The notes under the pieces are model-generated. The model was given only the letters and a program-made list of their open reading frames with translations. It did no database searches and was not told the DNA's origin. Position numbers and translations under genes: made by a program. A stretch of DNA of 64,000 nucleotides from Jiangella anatolica (GTDB lineage: Bacteria > Actinomycetota > Actinomycetes > Jiangellales > Jiangellaceae), in the NCBI RefSeq assembly GCF_003236295.1, contig NZ_POTW01000019.1, forward strand, positions 1 to 64,000. Reading direction: 5' to 3'. Positions within the stretch are counted from its first letter, which is position 1. Each line of letters starts with the position of its first letter. Positions 28,553 through 30,138 of the stretch are shown piece after piece.

Positions 28553-28996
28553 ATGTTGATCGTGCTCGCACTGCTGTTGTTCGTGGTCGTCGGCGCCGCG
28601 ATGTACGTGGCCGCGGCTGACGGCACCGGCGAGGTGCTGGTCGAATCGTTCGGCCTGGACGTCGACATCCCCGTGTGGGGCGTCTTCGTCGCCGGCGCCG
28701 TGACGATGCTCGTCGTGCTGGCCGCGGTGGCCGCGCTCGCCGCCGGCCTGCGTGCCGCCCGGTCGCGGCGGACGGAGATCAGGTACCTGCGGCAGAAGGT
28801 CGCCCACCAGGAGCTGGCTGAGGACCAGGCGACCACGGCGATGCCGGTGGCCGGCACCACGACCGGCCGGACCACCACCGACTCGGCCACGGATGGCGTC
28901 GTCGACACCGGGGACGACGGCGCGCACCGCCGGCTGAGCCGGTGGCGCCGGCACCACGCCGACGACAAGCCGCCGGCCGAAGCCGCGCAGAACTGA
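28553..28996 (+). CDS. small two-helix membrane protein (LapA-like)
   Basis: A 147-residue protein with two hydrophobic helices (residues about 2-22 and 42-66) and a hydrophilic C-terminal tail rich in Thr, Asp, Arg and His. The arrangement resembles LapA-domain envelope proteins. AGAGGAGG precedes the ATG well. Function is unknown. It stands alone, 66 bases after the HAD gene. Confidence 0.7.
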   Translation: MLIVLALLLFVVVGAAMYVAAADGTGEVLVESFGLDVDIPVWGVFVAGAVTMLVVLAAVAALAAGLRAARSRRTEIRYLRQKVAHQELAEDQATTAMPVAGTTTGRTTTDSATDGVVDTGDDGAHRRLSRWRRHHADDKPPAEAAQN

Positions 28997-29186
28997 CCGC
29001 TGCGGCGGGCGTATGCGCCCCGGCGGCGCGTGACGTGACGGCACGCGCCGCCGGATCACGCTGCCCCGGCTTGGCGCATCGCCGTGCCCCGTCCAGCCGC
29101 CGCGCCCTTGCGGCGTCCACGCCCGGCCGCCAGCGCGCCAGACGGCCCCGCGTCGCCGTGATGTGCGGCCCCGCACCCGCTCGGCT

Positions 29187-29260
29187 ACGGCGATCGCGGA
29201 CAGTGTCGGTGCCCGCCCGTAGGGTGGGCACCCTCCCTAGAGGGGCGGGTCATACCTACC
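29187..29260. repeat. conserved 74-base core, copy 1, with two hairpins
   Basis: Inside the core, GGTGCCCGCCC (29208-29218) pairs with GGGTGGGCACC (29222-29232) around a three-base loop, an 11-bp stem. CCCTCCC (29231-29237) pairs with GGGCGGG (29243-29249) with one mismatch. The two stems share two bases, so their outer pairs compete. Structure suggests an RNA or a mobile palindromic element; no family is recognised. Confidence 0.7.
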
Positions 29261-29360
29261 TCACGGCGCACGCTGCGCCCGCCCTAGCGGTGCTCCCGCA
29301 CGGCCGCCATCGCCCCACGGCCCGTCCCGCCGCTATGTGCGGCCCCGCGCCCGCTCCGCG

Positions 29361-29434
29361 ACGGCGATCGCGGACAGTGTCGGTGCCCGCCCGTAGGGTG
29401 GGCACCCTCCCTAGAGGGGCGGGTCATACCTACC
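29361..29434. repeat. conserved 74-base core, copy 2
   Basis: Identical to the core at 29187-29260, with the same two competing hairpins at 29382-29406 and 29405-29423. The identity contrasts with the diverged sequence on both sides. Confidence 0.7.
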
Positions 29435-29462
29435 CACGGCGCACGCCGTGCTCGCCGCATGA

Positions 29463-29567
29463 CCGCGCCGTCGCCTGCCGCGTCACCGTCCACCGCGTCG
29501 CCTACAACCGCGTCACGGATAGCCGCGTCACCGACCACGGCGTCGCCGACGACCGCGTCACTGACGA
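29463..29567. repeat. 15-bp minisatellite, seven units
   Basis: Seven contiguous 15-base units beginning CCGCGTCAC or a close variant (29463, 29478, 29493, 29508, 29523, 29538, 29553). The period is a multiple of three and encodes five-residue repeats such as RVTDx on the plus strand, but no start with a ribosome site is evident. It ends just before the 3' end of the DUF4262 gene. Confidence 0.8.
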
Positions 29568-29575
29568 GGACGCGC

Positions 29576-30067
29576 CTACTCCGGTGAGTGCGGCCGCGGC
29601 GCCGGCTGCAGCCCGGCCGGCAGCTCGTACCCCTCGTCCCAGGGGAACCGCCCATCGGCGTCGTCCCAGATGAGCTGCAGCGCGGGCACCGGGTCGGCCG
29701 GGCCGCGGCCGTAGAAGCGCTGTGCCGAGCCGAGCACCGCCGGCTCCTCCCCGTCGTGGAAGGGGAACAGCTGCAGCCGGTGCGACCAGCCGTGCAGTCG
29801 AAGCGGCCGGCCCGGGCCGAACCGCTCGCCGTCGCGGACGCGCTCGCCGAGGTGGTTCAGCACCCAGGCGCTGGACTGCAGGTCCAGCCCGTACACCAGC
29901 AGCTCCGGATGGCCGAGACCGAACAGCCCGACCGAGTAGGCGAACGGTGGCGCGCCGGCGGCGTACTGCACGGCCATGCCGTGCCGGCGGACCGTGTCGC
30001 GCAGCCACGCGTCCTCCTGGTCCCGCCACTGCTGCTGCTCGACGGCGGGACAGGTGTCCAACATCAT
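29576..30067 (-). CDS. DUF4262-type protein
   Basis: A 163-residue cytosolic protein with the DUF4262 pattern: DAWLRDTVRRHGMAVQYAAG, PPFAYSVGLFGLGHPELLVY, and a C-terminal part ending in IWDDADGRFPWDEGYE. The tandem ATGs follow GGAGG. The family has no established function. It stands alone beside the repeat-rich region. Confidence 0.85.
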   Translation of the reverse strand: MMLDTCPAVEQQQWRDQEDAWLRDTVRRHGMAVQYAAGAPPFAYSVGLFGLGHPELLVYGLDLQSSAWVLNHLGERVRDGERFGPGRPLRLHGWSHRLQLFPFHDGEEPAVLGSAQRFYGRGPADPVPALQLIWDDADGRFPWDEGYELPAGLQPAPRPHSPE

Positions 30068-30138
30068 GTCGGCCTCCGGGGCTTCGCTTGAACTGGAGTT
30101 CGAACACTAGTCGCAGCCACTGACAACGTCCGGCGAAA

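Follow-up and report, generated by a model that had tools for sequence, protein, structure and literature searches.

Mobile promoters are promoter sequences that spread within prokaryote genomes and act upstream of genes. The repeat described here, from the actinobacterial genus Jiangella, resembles them in that a predicted promoter sequence has spread, but its copies mostly do not lie upstream of genes. Most of the REP-type repeats covered by one survey (PMC3733652) are proteobacterial, and RAYT moves those that are best understood. As that survey characterises REP, BIME and REPIN elements, the Jiangella repeat has in common with them a high copy number, hairpins, a preference for downstream or convergent positions, use as a target by insertion sequences and within-genome subfamilies. 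It differs from REPs in that no Y1/RAYT transposase (PF01797) is found in 12 of 12 Jiangella genomes and in that the unit has its GTAG internally (G at position 16 in 146 of 159 copies) and not at its end, with GTAC or GTAA in some divergent copies; as neither a RAYT nor a terminal GTAG tag was found, we do not file it as a REP. Rickettsia RPEs are short palindromic units that occur both intergenically and, in frame, within protein-coding genes, and CGTC-type repeats, two kinds of RPE among them, are said in the same survey to have no dedicated transposase (PMC3733652). The Jiangella element is RPE-like in its behaviour as described; it belongs to another phylum, carries a full DNA-damage promoter motif and is often arranged head-to-tail in tandem.

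That motif is the PafBC/RecA-NDp consensus, tTGTCRgtg-8nt-TannnT (PMC5656591), also given as TGTCRG-N10-TA-N3-T, whose function depends on direction (PMC8151990). The element has the exact consensus and spacing reported in these two sources, and the same genomes have ordinary sites of this kind before genes; unlike those promoters, its copies are mostly orphan, have a conserved GC hairpin after the motif, and are multiplied and dispersed. We consider it probable, at roughly 0.6, that the element is a non-autonomous dispersed REP/RPE-like palindrome whose unit is an orphan DNA-damage promoter followed by a start-site GC hairpin. The family combines an actinobacterial host, the lack of a detectable RAYT, in-frame presence within genes and a complete, directional damage-response promoter motif. 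If the promoter fires, one genome may hold up to ~170 extra damage-inducible start sites, and a repeat exploiting a stress regulator could be tested in a genus spanning 0 to 173 copies per species. The titles and abstract openings of the best-ranked papers on Jiangella repeats, PafBC and RecA-NDp promoters, repeat elements, Rickettsia palindromes and mobile promoters do not name the element.

The tandem pair in the window

The window comprises the first 64,000 nt of contig NZ_POTW01000019.1 of Jiangella anatolica, labelled G000 among the 12 Jiangella genomes compared (G000-G011); L numbers denote loci. The features of the locus are as follows.

28997..29575, no strand: convergent intergenic region with both copies, 579 bp (71-261 bp and no copy in 7 of 12 Jiangella genomes)
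29187..29260, + strand: copy 1, 74-nt run identical to copy 2 (sequence, repeat search)
29204..29260, + strand: copy 1 element unit, 57 nt, with a sharp left boundary at TGTCGG (conservation profile of 159 copies, matches across the genus)
29204..29225, + strand: copy 1 exact RecA-NDp/PafBC motif, TGTCGGTG-N8-TAGGGT (motif search against the consensus published in PMC5656591)
29212..29228, + strand: copy 1 hairpin 1, CCCGCCC / GGGTGGG, within the promoter motif, degraded in divergent subfamilies (folding, subfamily comparison)
29231..29249, + strand: copy 1 hairpin 2, CCCTCCC-TAGAG-GGGCGGG, with a central mismatch, kept in divergent subfamilies (subfamily comparison)
29361..29434, + strand: copy 2, 74-nt run identical to copy 1 (sequence, repeat search)
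29378..29434, + strand: copy 2 element unit, 57 nt (conservation profile, genus-wide matches)
29378..29399, + strand: copy 2 exact RecA-NDp/PafBC motif, TGTCGGTG-N8-TAGGGT (motif search against the consensus published in PMC5656591)
29386..29402, + strand: copy 2 hairpin 1 (folding, subfamily comparison)
29405..29423, + strand: copy 2 hairpin 2 (subfamily comparison)

The initial annotation had described a tandem 174-bp duplication with an identical 74-base core, and both the sequence and a repeat search bear this out. The copies lie 174 bp apart and are 93% identical across 114 nt; the 74-nt run (counted by eye) is the same in both, and the flanks, which had been described as clearly differing, show 79% similarity over 38 nt and 86% over 22 nt. 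Two competing stems had also been proposed and were recovered, since an 11-bp stem (29208-29218/29222-29232) forms in the minimum-energy DNA fold but a nested alternative forms in the RNA fold. The sequence CATACCTACC, which had been placed after the core, really lies inside the identical run. The exact PafBC/RecA-NDp promoter motif inside the core had been overlooked. Divergent copies retain the second hairpin and not the 11-bp stem noted first.

The copies are bounded by two convergent genes, at 28553-28996 (+) and 29576-30067 (-, DUF4262). Among called genes, no same-strand gene start was found 3′ of either copy inside the 28997-29575 gap, and neither a sigma-70 promoter nor a U-tract terminator was found within 28900-29700. 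Rfam covariance models gave 0 matches in the window at the gathering threshold, and 0 up to E = 1 in 29000-29580. The pair may be a structured RNA in two copies, as the initial annotation had suggested.

Two further repeats were noted in the same gap. Degenerate 15-bp tandem repeats occupy 29462-29566, immediately 3′ of copy 2, and a 15-bp in-frame expansion also flanks the element copy in a kinase-like gene of G010 (L502); one may speculate from such neighbours that elements seed local repeat growth. Directly after the gene at 28553-28996 lies a 17-nt inverted repeat (29020-29054; arms 94% complementary, 1 nt apart) that is perhaps the terminator of that gene, and by eye a similar palindrome follows its orthologue in G002 and G008.

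Copy number, placement and movement in the genus

The initial annotation had proposed searching the genome and its relatives for the core and had allowed that it might occur nowhere else, which the results clearly contradict. Searching with the window region gave 13 places in its own genome and many more in relatives. Using a 25-nt pattern for the left part of the unit (up to 2 mismatches), we counted 17 copies in G000, 23 in G001, 33 in G002, 0 in G003, 106 in G004, 0 in G005, 5 in G006, 61 in G007, 4 in G008, 64 in G009, 173 in G010 and 32 in G011, with 0 matches to the reversed pattern in all 12 genomes. In a class-wide search at up to 1 mismatch 11 of 393 genomes matched, only one of them among the 381 outside Jiangella, and this lone match directly precedes a start read by eye as uvrC. 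In a named collection of 84,980 species all 106 stretches with the exact pattern were from Jiangella (J. muralis, J. endophytica, J. rhizosphaerae and J. ureilytica). A viral or plasmid origin was considered and rejected, with 0 exact matches in viral contigs and no plasmid match.

Gene context, taken from a home-made gene finder, was available for 117 copies, 100 of which are from G004 (100 of its 106 were used; one copy common to L037 and L113 was counted once). Outside ORF calls were 88 of these: 46 in convergent gaps, 7 in divergent gaps and the rest beside co-directional neighbours, where the two orientations (19 and 16 copies) show no strand bias. The remaining 29 lay inside an ORF call, and 12 of them had coding signal on both sides and were read through in frame. 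Convergent gaps held 39 of 79 intergenic copies in G004 (p 4e-15) and 7 of 9 in G000 (p 1.6e-5), against 12.8% expected by length in each case, the p values treating copies as independent. Divergent gaps held 7 of the 100 copies in G004, and in 1.12 Mb of three species 195 such gaps had 0 copies. Gaps with a copy are long: the median is 447 bp (n = 10) versus 129 bp without one for convergent gaps, and 599 bp (n = 6) versus 112 bp for co-directional gaps.

Occupied and empty sites could be compared between species. At the window locus copies are present in 4 of 12 genomes and absent from 8: there are two in G000, and in G004, G009 and G010 the upstream gene runs at its 3′ end into a single copy, the unit supplying the stop codon. 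Seven of the empty genomes have only 71-261 bp between the genes; in G008 (L068) the gap is 816 bp long and contains other long inverted repeats in place of any element copy. In three species that are syntenic over one region (HSP identity ~94-95%), the copies likewise vary by species. Within genes, a kinase-like gene (labelled by eye) carries an in-frame copy in G004, G010 and G007 and none at that place in G009, G000, G011, G006, G008, G003 and G005, these being 10 genomes compared after G001 (anchor not found) and G002 (contig end) were left out. An oxidase-like gene (also labelled by eye), read with tblastn at seven loci, has a copy at the same codon in G000, G009, G004, G011 and G001, an apparent remnant in G008 and none in G006. 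Taken together, the dispersed copies, their presence or absence in sister species, the bias to convergent gaps and the in-frame copies missing from sister orthologues point to a mobile REP/RPE-like palindromic element, so that the "mobile palindromic element" of the initial annotation is well supported.

A clean 57-bp intergenic insertion was looked for and not found at the sites compared with empty sisters; three occupied intergenic sites have ~285-970 bp of extra, degenerate GC-rich sequence relative to the empty sister site. At G009 144428 the occupied gap measures 232 bp against ~1255 bp in the two copy-free sisters, and at G009 121970 the length difference is mostly an extra gene. As to MITE traits, the unit ends are only weakly complementary by eye, and no target duplication was seen at the intergenic sites inspected. 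A RAYT/IS200 enzyme was rejected as the mover, Y1_Tnp (PF01797) being detected in 0 of 12 genomes (E <= 0.001) versus 5 of 14 control genomes. Insertion sequences have split three element copies (L113, L114 and L147) at their CTAG, which now stands on either side of the insertion; the transposase is of the rve type at L113 and DDE_Tnp_1 at L147, and L114 resembles L113 by eye.

Promoter motif, hairpins and subfamilies

The unit of the dispersed repeat is ~57 bp. Its conservation begins at TGTC, with 2.83 bits at position 1 in a profile of 159 copies (thinned from 190 by left-flank similarity), and upstream of this only positions -6 to -1 stand out (G at -5 in 132 of 159, A at -4 in 98 of 159). 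The left part reads TGTCRGTG-CCCGCCC-R-TAGGGTGGG, and is followed by 13-15 nt containing CCCTCCC or CCCACCC, then by GGGCGGG or GGGAGGG, with a short tail after them. Over its first 22 nt each window copy fits the PafBC/RecA-NDp consensus at all positions, the weakly conserved preceding t being G here. Most copies of the family have the motif in exact form; the T of the -10 is lost in 1 of the 159, and a copy inside a gene of G007 has lost the TA of the -10. Main-family copies conserve the spacer CCCGCCC and the GGG within the -10 to the same degree as the motif (the collection pattern includes both), which counts against a promoter alone, since a promoter alone does not need them.

The motif is evidently part of the regulatory vocabulary of the genus. 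Exact sites number 35 in G000, 34 in G003 and 29 in G005, against 0, 1 and 2 for the reversed control, and 18 of the 35 in G000 are element copies (13 main and 5 divergent). From these 98 sites 30 were available as loci; with four element copies (L270, L276, L279, L282) set aside, at 25 of the 26 non-element sites a gene on the same strand begins no more than 160 bp downstream, the genes including recA and an endonuclease III gene (both by eye) and DUF222 genes (two confirmed). Only 6 of the 117 element copies have such a start, and it is this comparison that identifies the motif as a genus-wide regulatory signal that is mostly orphan in elements. The regulator is present in the genus: G000 encodes a WYL/WCX protein beside a protein with HTH_PafC (Pfam), followed, as read by eye, by tatA and tatC; neither the PafB nor the PafC candidate had an NCBIfam match.

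The distance from the first base of the motif to the called start codon is 26-31 nt at 12 of the 26 non-element loci, as expected for leaderless transcripts. Transposed to the element, this distance would put the expected transcription start at hairpin 2, in or just before its 5′ arm. The unit is thus a predicted DNA-damage promoter with a hairpin at its putative start site.

Main-family units can fold as two side-by-side hairpins or as one nested hairpin. The folding energy of the window unit is mildly unusual (z -1.77 as DNA, -2.06 as RNA), and that of two other subfamilies is ordinary (z -0.12 to -0.59). Divergent subfamilies, also found in tandem, were recovered by a looser pattern search that required TGTCRG and TA...T, so conservation at those positions is built in. 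At the only two motif positions left free by the search, position 7 is T in 14 and position 8 is G in 11 of 15 divergent copies, which include tandem relatives. Pairing in hairpin 1 drops from 6.97 to 4.4 of 7 pairs in divergent copies, and the 3′ arm of hairpin 2, also free in the pattern, is kept in 15 of 16, the sixteenth running off its contig; the central position of hairpin 2 is unpaired in 15 of 15. By pattern, 11 of 175 units lack the C2/G2 pair (10 main, 1 divergent at a contig end), and wherever the pattern matched, it already dictates the six G-C pairs of hairpin 2.

A scan of 1.12 Mb from three species, not selected on hairpins, gave 21 sites with double hairpins, all 21 with a TGTCRGNG motif upstream, and 0 in shuffled sequence; each site appears on both strands, giving 42 rows, 21 with the motif upstream and 21 ending in its reverse complement. 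Five single hairpins lay outside elements: three inside genes, one in a remnant half element and one other. Inspection by eye had suggested a larger structure with an outer stem formed by the flanks; it was rejected, since in 159 copies permuting the flanks left their pairing as good as in the matched state (z = -0.97). At L276 (G000:C78) and L289 (G001) a series of additional GC hairpins, ~21 nt apart, comes after the motif; the L276 array reaches the contig end, and arrays of this kind may thus interrupt assemblies.

Explanations for the family

The initial annotation had attributed the uneven divergence of the window pair to selection or gene conversion on the core, and 30 tandem pairs fit that joint claim when pooled: the core is 96.2% identical (1671/1737) versus 75% (963/1282) and 72% (644/890) for the 44-nt flanks, with the exception of three pairs of the five-copy array L115, in which the upstream flanks match each other as well as the core does. 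Contributions to this constraint could come from purifying selection, from gene conversion between copies or from recent spread, and copies inside genes are under coding constraint as well. A simple local tandem duplication whose core stayed alike by chance or through one conversion would account for tandem copies with alignable flanks as seen in the window, but we find it scarcely conceivable given this contrast of core and flanks over 30 pairs and a genus-wide dispersed family with the same core; the copy counts in the 12 genomes already refute it. A role as a bidirectional transcription terminator between convergent genes, suggested by the strong excess in convergent gaps and by the stable hairpins, is very improbable: a U-tract terminator was not found at the window copies, 8 of 12 genomes do without the element at that locus, and the 12 in-frame copies (of 117) sit within ORFs that are read through them.

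Two other readings concern what the motif is for. The family could be a purely structural palindrome, of the cruciform or G-quadruplex type and REP-like, whose resemblance to a PafBC site is incidental or a trace of origin. Such a palindrome would fit the nearly constant spacing of the GGGNGGG and CCCNCCC tracts that both strands carry (13-15 nt between the two G tracts in 153 of 154 copies), as well as the lack of strand bias beside co-directional neighbours, the rarity of positions upstream of genes and the in-gene copy without an intact -10. We hold it to be possible, though rather unlikely, because the exact motif stands at the extreme left end of the unit and belongs to the vocabulary of the genus, and because divergent subfamilies alter the spacer and hairpin 1 but keep T7 and G8 at search-free positions. 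Alternatively the copies might be useful to the host, giving damage-inducible short hairpin or antisense RNAs or acting as a sponge that titrates PafBC-RNA polymerase; the retained motif, the share of exact sites in G000 that are element copies and the dose that tandem copies could add all agree with this. Against it stand a copy number that varies between 0 and 173 inside a single genus, two copy-free species that keep 34 and 29 motif sites, and positions that often vary between species, and we regard a host function for the family as distinctly improbable.

For the favoured mobile palindrome with an orphan damage promoter, the following course of events can be proposed. On DNA damage, PafBC and RNA polymerase would open the unit and start a short non-coding transcript headed by the hairpin, and either the strand opening or the transcript would aid copying of the element. 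The motif would then persist for its use to the element and not for the sake of any gene downstream; it may also be retained for the host or as a trace of origin. Local head-to-tail copies would arise by replication slippage at the hairpins, and transfer to new places would depend on some enzyme, for which no RAYT/IS200-type transposase was found in the 12 genomes. A bolder version, which is speculative and unlikely, makes the family a selfish element built around a damage promoter, in which PafBC opens every copy and the exposed hairpin strand or the transcript is copied to new sites during repair. If so, the element would turn the repair programme of its host into its own replication signal and, in genomes with 100-170 copies, would probably outnumber the true PafBC promoters (~30 motif sites in copy-free species).

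An exact RecA-NDp site, TGTCAGTGGCTGCGACTAGTGT, was also found at 30104-30125 (-). It begins 59 nt ahead of the point where the DUF4262 gene (29576-30067, -) starts, which makes this repeat-adjacent gene a candidate DNA-damage gene in its own right. In the element-free genomes G003 and G005 several genes have similar RecA-NDp promoters and similar first residues (L259, L262, L265, L266, L271, L272 and L281), and those at L259 and L281 are confirmed DUF222 genes.
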